Part shown: in pieces, positions 9,836 through 60,690 of the stretch
How positions within the stretch are numbered: position 1 is the first letter of the stretch
How the letters are laid out: the number at the start of each line of letters is the position of its first letter
Origin: Acidobacteriaceae bacterium
GTDB taxonomy: Bacteria; Acidobacteriota; Terriglobia; Terriglobales; Acidobacteriaceae
NCBI GenBank assembly: GCA_003138515.1
Contig: PLGG01000015.1
Coordinates: 187,344-251,343, forward strand
DNA length: 64,000 nucleotides
Reading direction: 5' to 3'
Position numbers and translations under genes: made by a program
Notes under the pieces: generated by a model
What the model was told of the DNA's origin: nothing
Seen by the model: the letters and a program-made list of their open reading frames with translations, nothing else
Database searches by the model: none

Positions 9836-9870
9836 TTCTTAGCTCCTAGCTTCTAGCCTCTAGCTTCTAG
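9836..9870. repeat. Heptamer array, CTTCTAG type (5 units)
   Basis: Five contiguous 7-mers, TTCTTAG, CTCCTAG, CTTCTAG, CCTCTAG and CTTCTAG, begin 3 bases upstream of the coaX ATG. The array is the inverse complement of the one at 9916-9943, so the coaX-birA spacer is flanked by arms able to pair. Confidence 0.75.
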
Positions 9871-9915
9871 CCGGATTCTCGTGACAGCCAAAACGAAGAA
9901 ATCGGCAAGCACGAG

Positions 9916-9943
9916 CTAGTAGCTAGAAGCTAGCGGCTAGAAG
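9916..9943. repeat. Heptamer array, CTAGAAG type (4 units)
   Basis: Four contiguous 7-mers, CTAGTAG, CTAGAAG, CTAGCGG and CTAGAAG, are the reverse complement of the array at 9836-9870. The array overlaps the 3' end of birA and supplies its last codons and its TAG stop. Confidence 0.75.
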
Positions 9944-10724
9944 CTGTATTCCCGCGCAGTCCGCCGGTTTGCACGGTCACGAGCCCGCTTGCGGTTGCCA
10001 CGCGCAGGAATCCGTGCTCGTCGAGGCCGGCCGTGACGCCTGTACACGATTGCGGACCGTGCACTTCTACTTTGCGGCCGCAAATCCAGGTGGAAGCCTT
10101 CTCCACACGCACGGAAATCTCTTTTGCCGCAGCCGGATCAGCGAGCGCGCACGCCTCACGCTCCAGCGATTTTAGCAGTTCGGCGAGGAGGGTTTGGCGC
10201 GAGTGGCGTTTGCCCGATTCCAGATCGAGCGAGGTTGCGGGTGTGGCCAGCCCGGGCGGAAAGGCGCGCTGGTGCACGTTGATTCCGATACCCACGACCA
10301 CTACGTGGGGTAGACCTTCGGATTCGGTCTTTGACTCAACAAGAATGCCGCCGGTCTTTCGCGGTCCGACGAGGAGATCGTTAGGCCAGCGCAGGTCGAC
10401 GATGAGGCCCGAGACGGCGCGAATAGCTTCGGCAGCGGCGAGGCCCGCGGCCAGCGGCAAAAGCGGCAGATGCGAGACGGGAATCTGCGGCCGGAGAAGA
10501 ACGCTGACGTAGAGCCCTTCGCCGGCGACGGAGACCCAGCCGTGATCGCCGCGGCCGCGACCGGCCAGTTGCTCATCGGCAAGGAAGACCGAGCCATGCG
10601 GCGCACCTTCGCGCGCGGCGGCGACGGCGTCGGCGTTGGTGGATCCCGTGACGGGGATAAAATGCAGCTTCCCGGCAAAGAGAGTGCCGGCGAGATCGGC
10701 TTCGAGAGCGGGGAGATCGAACAT
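9930..10724 (-). CDS. birA: Biotin-[acetyl-CoA-carboxylase] ligase, no DNA-binding domain
   Basis: From ATG 10724 the protein is about 264 residues. It transfers biotin to the carboxyl-carrier protein. Motifs are TGSTNADA, the biotinyl-AMP loop GRGRGDHGWVS, LRWPNDLLVGPRKTGGILVE and GIGINV; a small C-terminal SH3-like domain follows. The N-terminal helix-turn-helix of bifunctional BirA is absent, so it should be a pure ligase. The ORF-track start at 10790 is a TTG and would overlap nadC by 20 bp; the ATG at 10724 is preferred. The C-terminal codons come from a heptamer repeat (NTASSR). Confidence 0.9.
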   Translation of the reverse strand: MFDLPALEADLAGTLFAGKLHFIPVTGSTNADAVAAAREGAPHGSVFLADEQLAGRGRGDHGWVSVAGEGLYVSVLLRPQIPVSHLPLLPLAAGLAAAEAIRAVSGLIVDLRWPNDLLVGPRKTGGILVESKTESEGLPHVVVVGIGINVHQRAFPPGLATPATSLDLESGKRHSRQTLLAELLKSLEREACALADPAAAKEISVRVEKASTWICGRKVEVHGPQSCTGVTAGLDEHGFLRVATASGLVTVQTGGLRGNTASSR

Positions 10725-19934: not shown

Positions 19935-21287
19935 TCAGGTCAACGGCGGAGGAAGAATTGTTTTTGCGGCCATTCGGCCCACGCCGCGAAGGATGGCCTT
20001 GATGGGCCAGCGATCTTCGGCGTCGGGGAAGAAAACCTCTCCTGTGCGCTTTGCTTCGGGGCGGTAGTACCAGCGCTTGAGCAGCGCCAGATGACCCTGC
20101 CGAATTGTGGCTGTCGGCGCGGCTTTGTCTTGCGTCAAAGCGCCGAGAGCGTCCTCGAGCCGGCTTTCGAGAACGCCGCGAGCGAGCTTTGGTGCGACTG
20201 GCGCCTGCGTTGCGGCCTGTGCTTCCGCTGCTCGGCTGCTGCTGATTCCCGATCCCTGTTCCCTGCTCCCTGTTCCCTGTTCTCCGTTCTCTGCTCTCTG
20301 ATCTTTGATCTCTGTCTGCTCCGGAATCGCTTCAATCGCCAGCGGCTGCGCGAACAGCGAGGTCGAGCCGGACTGCTCGTTCTGAATTCTCATGCCCAGA
20401 GTCGAGAAAGCCGCCGGGCCACGCAGGCGGCCGCTATCAAACAAGAACACGGCGACTTCGTCGGGATTCGCTGAGGCTTGAACAATCACAGCGCGAAGTT
20501 GGCTAAGTGGGCGGACGAGTTCGGCGGCCAGGGCGCGCACGGCCTCGACTTGCTGCACCTGTGCGTGGAGCGCGGCGGCGGACTCGAATGCGAGATCGGC
20601 CGATGCCTGGTCGCGCTCAGTGCGGAGGGTGACGAGCCGGCTTTCGCCGCGCGTCGCGAGAAAACGTTCGACGGCCACAGACTCTTCCCCATAGCGCTCG
20701 TCGCTGCAGCCCTTGAAACACGGCGCGAGACACATCTTCATCTCGGAGTAGACGCAGCCCGGATAGCTCGGATCGGGCGCGAGTTCGAAGGTGCAGCGGC
20801 GCAGCAGAAACAATTTGAGCATCTCTTCGGCGTAGCGCTCGGCGGCAGCGCGCGAGGGGAACGGTCCGTACGCCCAGTCGGCTTCGCGAAGGCTGGGCCG
20901 ATGCGTGACCGTAACACGCGGGTAAGGATTGCCGCCGAGAAAACGGACGAAGGCGGGATGGCGGAGGTGCATGCGCTCCAAAACTGTTGCGCCGAAGATC
21001 TCGTCTAAAAGAGAGAACTGCGCAAGCAGCGATTCGAACTCGGAGCCGGTGAGCTTCCAATCGATTCGGCGTACAAGTCCAGCGAGATGGAGGCGGCGCG
21101 GATGCTTCGCGGAGGGCTGCAGCAGCCGTTCAAGTCTCGAACGAAGGTTGGGCGTACGGCCGATGTAGGGCTCTGCGCGAGAGTCGCCGCCATAGAGCGC
21201 AAAGACCGCTGCCGACTGCGGCAGCTCGGCCAGCGTGGCTTTCGGAGCGGCCAGATCGAATGGCAGAGATTGGAACTCGTTCGGCAC
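19935..21287 (-). CDS. UvrC-like GIY-YIG protein lacking the C-terminal nuclease
   Basis: A 450-residue protein. The N-terminal GIY-YIG domain (AVFALYGGD, EPYIGRTPNLRSRLERLL) is followed by the UvrC-type cysteine segment YPGCVYSEMKMCLAPCFKGC. A UVR-type helical hairpin lies about 215-260 (ERDQASADLAFESAAALHAQ). The RNase H-like endonuclease and helix-hairpin-helix domains of full UvrC (about 600 residues) are absent. A single incision like that of Cho is plausible, but the C-terminus differs from Cho. Residues about 324-344 (EIKDQRAENGEQGTGSREQG) are encoded by a heptamer repeat. It is not safe to call it uvrC. Confidence 0.72.
   Translation of the reverse strand: MPNEFQSLPFDLAAPKATLAELPQSAAVFALYGGDSRAEPYIGRTPNLRSRLERLLQPSAKHPRRLHLAGLVRRIDWKLTGSEFESLLAQFSLLDEIFGATVLERMHLRHPAFVRFLGGNPYPRVTVTHRPSLREADWAYGPFPSRAAAERYAEEMLKLFLLRRCTFELAPDPSYPGCVYSEMKMCLAPCFKGCSDERYGEESVAVERFLATRGESRLVTLRTERDQASADLAFESAAALHAQVQQVEAVRALAAELVRPLSQLRAVIVQASANPDEVAVFLFDSGRLRGPAAFSTLGMRIQNEQSGSTSLFAQPLAIEAIPEQTEIKDQRAENGEQGTGSREQGSGISSSRAAEAQAATQAPVAPKLARGVLESRLEDALGALTQDKAAPTATIRQGHLALLKRWYYRPEAKRTGEVFFPDAEDRWPIKAILRGVGRMAAKTILPPPLT
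20254..20316. repeat. In-frame heptamer array inside the UvrC-like gene (9 units)
   Basis: Nine contiguous 7-mers run CCCTGTT, CCCTGCT, CCCTGTT, CCCTGTT, CTCCGTT, CTCTGCT, CTCTGAT, CTTTGAT and CTCTGTC. The total of 63 bp is exactly 21 codons, so the reading frame is preserved. It encodes the polar, low-complexity linker of the UvrC-like protein. Confidence 0.8.
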
Positions 21288-21448: not shown

Positions 21449-22351
21449 GTGAGACGCTTTGAAGTTGTATTGCTTTCGATTTCTCTCCTTGGTTTTCCGG
21501 TCAGCGATTCGGCGATCCAGAATCAGTCAACGCTGACGCAGCCCTCCCCAGCAAGCGCTCCCGCTTCCATCACCGTCCCTGCCGGTTCCAAAATCGAATT
21601 GGTTGTGACGCGCCCCGAGCGCGCGCAGTCCGCCAAGAACGGCGACACCGTCTACGCGCAAACTTCGTTTCCAACCGTCGCCGGCATCGGCATGGCAATT
21701 CCCGCGGGCACCTACGTGGAAGGGACGATTAAAAGCGTAACGCGTCCCACGCGCAAATTCGACCGCGCCGAGATTCAGGTGCTCTTCACCAAAATCGTTT
21801 TTGCCGATGGCTACATCGTGGAGCTTCCCGGCACAACAAACGCGATGCAGGCGCCGGCAGCCGGTCCCTCATCGGGCGATCCGCAACCCGCGTCCCGCGA
21901 GACGCTCATCGCGATCACGATTCAGGTGACGCCGGCGAACGATCTGCTGCTCGACAATGGCGCTGAAGTGGAGATGACGCTGGGCGCGCCGCTTCAGTTG
22001 AACGCAAAACAGGTTGCGCAGTCGATTCCCCTTTCGCGATTGCCGCAGCCGGGACAGCTTAAATCCGCCACAACTTGCCGCAACGTTCCCGGAAGCCCCG
22101 GTACGCAGGGGACGTCCGATACGGTGATTCCCGGATCGCCCGGCACGCCTGACACCGTGATTCCCAGAGGGCCCGGAATGCCCGATACTGTCATTCCTGG
22201 AACTCCAGCGACTCCGGATACCGTGATCCCCGGCTCGCCGGGCACATCGGGGACCCCTGACTATATTTGTCCGGCCACGCCGCTCGTGATTTCGTCGACT
22301 CCAGTCAACAACCAACCAACGCAAAGTTCTCAGCCGGTGGCGGCCCGTTAG
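21449..22351 (+). CDS. Secreted protein with collagen-like Pro-Thr repeats
   Basis: A 300-residue protein starting at GTG 21449, supported by gtggaggtgg upstream. A signal peptide (about 1-22) precedes a beta-rich domain (about 40-130, ITVPAGSKIELVV to ADGYIVELPG). The C-terminal third carries repeats of a ten-residue unit, SPGTPDTVIP-like (about residues 215-265). The beta domain is paralogous to that of the next gene, with IPAGTYVEG versus IPAGTFVDG. The domain recalls a TrbI/VirB10-like fold, but that is inference. Cell-surface location is likely; the function is unknown. Confidence 0.68.
   Translation: MRRFEVVLLSISLLGFPVSDSAIQNQSTLTQPSPASAPASITVPAGSKIELVVTRPERAQSAKNGDTVYAQTSFPTVAGIGMAIPAGTYVEGTIKSVTRPTRKFDRAEIQVLFTKIVFADGYIVELPGTTNAMQAPAAGPSSGDPQPASRETLIAITIQVTPANDLLLDNGAEVEMTLGAPLQLNAKQVAQSIPLSRLPQPGQLKSATTCRNVPGSPGTQGTSDTVIPGSPGTPDTVIPRGPGMPDTVIPGTPATPDTVIPGSPGTSGTPDYICPATPLVISSTPVNNQPTQSSQPVAAR
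22090..22262 (+). repeat. 30-bp coding repeat (SPGTPDTVIP units)
   Basis: About five degenerate copies of a unit encoding P-G-S/T-P-x-T-P-D-T-V-I-P run through the C-terminal region of the preceding gene. The periodicity is ten codons. Codon variation between units shows it is old, not a recent expansion. Confidence 0.7.
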
Positions 22352-60634: not shown

Positions 60635-60690
60635 AACGAATAACTGCGAACTAAGAGCTGTCAACTGACAATTGACAACTGACAACTAGA
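60635..60690. repeat. Heptamer array between A2 and B2 (8 units)
   Basis: Eight contiguous 7-mers run AACGAAT, AACTGCG, AACTAAG, AGCTGTC, AACTGAC, AATTGAC, AACTGAC and AACTAGA. Unit 1 has no equivalent between A1 and B1 (9 bp gap), so this array arrived after the duplication or was lost from unit 1. Confidence 0.8.

Follow-up and report, generated by a model that had tools for sequence, protein, structure and literature searches.

Heptamer arrays in the predicted disordered linker of a UvrC-like protein: probable copies of a dispersed, mostly intergenic repeat class in Acidobacteriaceae

How can a tandem array with a 7-bp period lie inside a protein-coding gene, and does its copy number obey the triplet code? 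The window analyzed here, a stretch of 64,000 nucleotides from an Acidobacteriaceae bacterium, contains such an array in a gene that a first-pass annotation of the letters had described as DNA-repair-like. This description is borne out by NCBIfam models, the Pfam UVR motif, and Foldseek, as the gene codes for a UvrC-like protein with the following organization.

19935..21287, minus strand: UvrC-like gene, 450 codons, GTG start (ORF list, NCBIfam, and orthologues).
20406..21236, minus strand: N-terminal UvrC-like region (GIY-YIG-like fold, Cys-rich stretch), residues 18-294 (NCBIfam and Foldseek).
20544..20642, minus strand: UVR (UvrB/UvrC) motif, residues 216-248 (Pfam PF02151, 19.8 bits against a cutoff of 21.5).
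20199..20372, minus strand: predicted disordered linker, residues 306-363 (AlphaFold2 pLDDT of <50 at 306-314 and 318-363).
20244..20314, minus strand: degenerate heptamer array CAGRGAN, about 10.1 units, residues 325-348 (period-7 run score of 34; TRF call at 20256-20315).
19959..20183, minus strand: conserved C-terminal region downstream of the linker, residues 369-443 (alignment; pLDDT of >88 over most of it).

The NCBIfam UvrC and DEDD-exonuclease-UvrC models match the 450-aa protein with E values down to 1e-36, all under their curated cutoffs, and the UvrC models align by their N-terminal part only. The score for TIGR00194, the UvrC equivalog, is 88.4 bits against a cutoff of 285.45, so the curated UvrC threshold is not passed. 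The best Foldseek matches are UvrC GIY-YIG domains (1yd6; TMt 0.66, probability 1.00, E 0.007). A PDB sequence search gave no useful relative. The protein resembles UvrC, and also the UvrC-like portion of fusions with a DEDD exonuclease, in a probable N-terminal GIY-YIG-like fold and a weak, possible UVR motif, but it differs from UvrC in scoring under the curated cutoffs and in that a separate, longer UvrC-like frame is found in the same genome (G000:C78). Orthologues of the gene are present in nearly all congeneric genomes. The AlphaFold2 model, run on 46 aligned proteins from the window and the orthologue loci, has confident folds at about residues 1-160, 195-305, and 369-443, with pLDDT of <50 at residues 163-171, 174-188, 306-314, and 318-363, the last of which contains the array.

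A period-7 array near the place given in the first-pass annotation is confirmed both by TRF (20256-20315, 8.6 copies, 81% matches) and by the period-7 run score, which reaches 34 over 71 bp and 10.1 copies. The highest score in 5,000 codon shuffles of the linker was 13, and two shuffles of 432 kb of the genome, scanned for periods 2 to 30, yielded nothing at a score of ≥15. The units are degenerate, reading on the coding strand in sevens CAGAGAT CAAAGAT CAGAGAG CAGAGAA CGGAGAA CAGGGAA CAGGGAG CAGGGAA CAGGGAT CGGGAAT C. The translation is TEIKDQRAENGEQGTGSREQGSGI, in which the peptide quoted earlier is contained. The count of nine units, 63 bp, and 21 codons is, in contrast, only one choice of edges. 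Lengths of 60, 63, and 71 bp are all defensible, and the multiple of three arises because the edges of an array of degenerate units were chosen that way.

We then looked at the array against the rest of its genome, in a 432-kb sample that was partly selected for containing TTCCCTG arrays and in which genes were called here by codon score rather than taken from a standard annotation. The sample contains 24 period-7 and 14 period-8 arrays at a score of ≥12. Arrays of period 7 or 14 are largely intergenic (27 of 31), while those of other periods are mostly within genes, so the array in the UvrC-like gene is an exception within its class. Placement in the gene gaps is not random either, as 16 of 39 arrays lie no more than 15 bp from a stop codon (7.0 expected from random placement in the same gap) and gaps between divergent genes hold a single one of the 39 (11 expected from their length). 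Three intergenic examples, detected by TRF and run score, are found in the window.

9837..9871, no strand assigned: heptamer array of the TAGCTTC family, 3 bp from a stop codon.
9914..9945, no strand assigned: heptamer array AGCTAGA, inverted partner of 9837-9871.
60658..60687, no strand assigned: heptamer array CTGACAA, intergenic.

The TAGCTTC and AGCTAGA arrays (9837-9945) are built on one word and face each other in inverted orientation within a single short gene gap, resembling the convergent pairs reported for Xanthomonas.

Different loci of the genome also have words in common. TGTTCCCTGTTCCCTGTTC has 19 exact matches (overlaps counted), against none for the reversed control, and we counted 99 pairs of loci sharing words where 10.5 are expected from composition. 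As some contigs had been picked for the AACAGGG word, the test was repeated on the window's own contig, C88, alone (9 against 1.25) and on all contigs after leaving out the AACAGGG family (23 against 3.2), with the same outcome. Beyond this genome, 44 of 59 congeneric genomes contain GGGANCA triplets; 14 genomes from a related family have none, and elsewhere in the class 3 of 26 genomes have them. Exact GGGAACA triplets were found in 9 of 297 Acidobacteriota genomes belonging to several families, while congeneric genomes are without them, and this patchiness is suggestive of transfer or of a word that has arisen more than once. Samples of 400 kb from two published complete or near-complete relatives (G002 and G091), and also G077, contained hardly any arrays of this kind or none at all, so the density of arrays differs greatly between genomes.

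The period itself has a consequence for coding. Neither 7 nor 8 has a factor in common with 3, and a pure array is therefore translated into one and the same peptide cycle whichever frame is used: GGGAACA is read as GNREQGT and GAGGGAAC as EGTRERGN in all three. The opposite strands are stop-free too, but they read CSLFPVP and VPSFPRSL, respectively.

The linker of the UvrC-like protein is a hot spot for these arrays. In a comparison set of 79 orthologues, with the threshold set at a score of ≥10.5, 30 linkers carry an array, of which 24 have a 7-bp and 6 an 8-bp period. At a score of ≥15, there are 20 period-7 or period-8 arrays in 9.5 kb of linker against 2 elsewhere in these genes (95.7 kb). 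The flanks on the same orthologue contigs, 406 kb in all, have 7, counting periods 7, 8, 14, and 16. The density in the linker is thus 100 to 120 times that of the rest of the gene or the flanks, the latter being one locus-wide set. Across 29 genomes, the array state of the linker was uncorrelated (rho 0.08, P = 0.67) with how heavily the genome is loaded with GGGANCA arrays, so an array in the linker is not predicted simply by exposure to the class. On a gene tree built without the linker, presence and absence of the array cannot be explained by fewer than 12 changes, whereas shuffled labels need 24 on average, which indicates both inheritance and turnover.

Arrays are not the only repeats in this position. 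The linker of L063 contains the palindromic repeats GGCACGACTTCAGTCGTGCC and GGGGCTTTAGCCCC in place of the array, as do its relatives, and palindromic REP-like repeats with GGGGCTTTAGCCCC-type stems are found in the linkers of L063, L045, L057, L092, and L078 and also of L079, L081, L038, L059, and L095. GGGGCTWWAGCCCC is itself dispersed in these genomes, with the stem motif at up to 62 places in one genome.

Other proteins of the genome also show repeats of this kind. TrmD (G000:C26:158405-159301; L129:18405-19301, minus strand) is a tRNA methyltransferase and usually essential. It has an in-frame array of 7- and 8-bp units, REQGTGNREQKDGQQGNEGTRE, in a loop reading REQGTGNREQ. This loop varies greatly in length among orthologues, 3 of the 26 readable cases have arrays, and several further orthologues contain what look like other dispersed repeats, so permissive loops seem to accept such repeats in general. 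The pattern in TrmD is weak, and the linker of the UvrC-like protein is the strongest case that we have seen.

Some further repeats deserve mention as side observations. An error-prone DnaE-type polymerase (G000:C26:93766-97338; L132:13766-17338, minus strand) contains an 8-bp array and another repeat-like stretch, TLRCAKDGAP, near residues 990-1020. In MiaA (G000:C88:144027-145094; L125:4027-5094), a heptamer array is read as an N-terminal extension, QGTVIRDQGS, although translation may in fact begin further downstream, past the array. An ORF of the window at 21449-22351 has four copies of a 33-bp tandem repeat at 22112-22245, with a collagen-like PGSPGTPDTVI motif.

What, then, maintains an array inside the UvrC-like gene? 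The in-frame length had been attributed to selection on copy number, according to which a length-tuned linker would gain and lose units by threes, in steps of 21 bp. The net length of the linker is indeed always a multiple of three, but so it must be in any open gene, and the arrays themselves do not follow the rule. Across the 30 linkers, 11 array spans are divisible by 3, 10 leave a remainder of 1, and 9 leave a remainder of 2. The edges of degenerate arrays are fuzzy and single spans may err by a few bases, but this even spread does not hinge on any single span. The alignment of the 79 orthologues therefore contains arrays of lengths other than multiples of three with an intact downstream frame, which stays open past the arrays into the conserved C-terminal region. 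The differences between close pairs are not steps of 21 bp either: the linkers of L049 and L072, with an 8-bp array, differ by 39 bp in genes that are 94.9% identical outside the linker, those of L009 and L099 differ by 15+15+9 bp, and L044/L046 and L076/L091 show gaps of 7 to 8 bp that compensate for each other. Linker length as a whole ranges widely, from 14 to 105 residues. On the evidence of the spans and of the close pairs, we rejected a rule of three, which we regard as highly improbable. That the frame is kept is shown by the conservation of the region that follows the linker, and it appears to be held by selection on net length and not on the number of units. Heptamer steps that shift the frame could in principle make the gene a contingency locus, in which gain or loss of units would turn the protein off and on by phase variation. 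We saw no off-phase orthologue, nor any internal stop among the orthologue matches listed; degenerate units slow slippage, and contingency genes are not usually of the repair-like housekeeping kind. With no off copies among the orthologues compared, phase variation was rejected as well, and we give it hardly any credence.

The remaining alternatives turn on the linker and on the strand. The linker might tolerate anything, so that the array would be a neutral passenger that persists by inheritance, with neither its polarity nor its presence under selection. This would agree with the strong phylogenetic signal of array presence and with the 49 of 79 orthologues that lack an array there, many of which have short Ala/Pro/Glu-rich linkers or palindrome-bearing ones. 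It does not account for the density of arrays in the linker, which the flanks do not share and genome load does not explain, and it has difficulty with the choice of strand. The purine-rich strand is the coding one in 29 of the 30 linker arrays, even though its complement could be read through as well. Among the intergenic arrays of the genome, oriented by the nearest stop codon, the figure is 17 of 38 (Fisher P of about 3e-6, uncorrected for relatedness; as the orthologues are related, the strand count overstates the number of independent events). This bias would be explained most simply by selection for a polar tether, and a neutral passenger seems unlikely to us. The G-rich strand could instead act as a putative G-quadruplex in the gene or its mRNA, regulating expression or marking a fragile site. 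The coding strand of the array has five GGG tracts separated by short loops, 14 of the 30 orthologous arrays have at least four, and related GGGNATC heptamers form G-quadruplexes in vitro (PMC4692102). The other 16 arrays do not have four tracts, the one in L036 is built on another word, CAGTTGT, and the polarity of the peptide explains the strand choice as well, so that a G-quadruplex function appears improbable.

We consider it probable that the array is one of a dispersed class of heptamer and octamer arrays, settled in a permissive disordered linker and kept, altered, and renewed there across species. According to this reading, the array in the UvrC-like linker would be one copy of a mostly intergenic class whose members spread by copying and lengthen and shorten, presumably through slippage or recombination. 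Whatever the phase in which it entered, a copy would remain open, as units of 7 or 8 bp give one peptide cycle, and it would be tolerated because it is open in every frame. Selection would act on the net length, with compensating small indels and partial units preserving the downstream frame, and would retain the purine-rich orientation, which gives a flexible polar tether rich in Gly, Glu, Gln, and Arg, while the opposite reading would be hydrophobic. The use of the array as a linker, proposed in the first-pass annotation, holds as a description, since the array lies between two confident folds in a region of predicted disorder and is coded from the polar strand in 29 of 30 cases. The array may not be required in that role, as about 60% of the orthologues have none there. 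The array thus seems to be tolerated as linker material and is possibly useful there, its exact length mattering little. A broader version is a good deal more speculative and, in our view, rather doubtful: that words of 7 and 8 bp make up a stock that is copied about the genome and repeatedly feeds polar linkers into disordered loops, such as those of the UvrC-like protein, TrmD, and DnaE2.

Similar repeats have been described in other bacteria. Rehm et al. (2015; PMC4692102) reported G-rich heptameric SSRs, GGGAATC in Xanthomonas and GGGGAYT in Nostoc, in 2 to over 10 copies, which are dispersed and mainly intergenic, near the ends of ORFs, seldom placed between divergent genes, and without an assigned role. 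The class found here matches them in its dispersed G-rich 7-base units and in its intergenic, near-stop, and nondivergent placement. It differs in its words (CAGRGAN and GGGANCA), in having several words together with 8-bp periods in one genome, and in a recurrent coding site in one protein linker. Only the last unit of the array in the UvrC-like gene reads GGGAATC, so the consensus CAGRGAN is a related word and not the same family as GGGNATC. The TAACTGA heptamers of Beggiatoaceae, Cyanobacteria, and Bacteroidetes (MacGregor 2015; PMC4679880) are also dispersed arrays of patchy distribution, with a minority inside ORFs, mostly at the edges of the proteins. They consist, however, of one fixed word that prefers positions just upstream of start codons, with a forward strand full of stops, whereas the arrays described here prefer sites after stop codons and the interior of a linker. 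The nearest precedent on the coding side is the Rickettsia palindromic elements (Ogata et al., reviewed in PMC2229807), dispersed short repeats that are inserted in frame, and tolerated, in conserved protein genes. These are palindromes of 105-146 bp with terminal inverted repeats, unlike the tandem array studied here, in which there is no palindrome (the longest stem found in the linker is 4 bp). A search of the available literature for heptamer arrays in Acidobacteria found nothing relevant. The present case differs from these systems in the recurrent coding site in a single protein linker.

Heptameric repeats are over-represented in many bacteria and have been described mainly as intergenic, with their origin and role still open (PMC4692102). 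One linker of a conserved protein, with arrays in 30 of 79 orthologues that are read almost always from the polar strand, provides a natural series in which slippage, insertion, and protein-level selection can be separated. If words of 7 and 8 bp do feed disordered loops repeatedly, repair and housekeeping proteins would gain sequence independently of the reading frame. The linker of the UvrC-like protein shows how noncoding repeats can turn into protein sequence regardless of frame.
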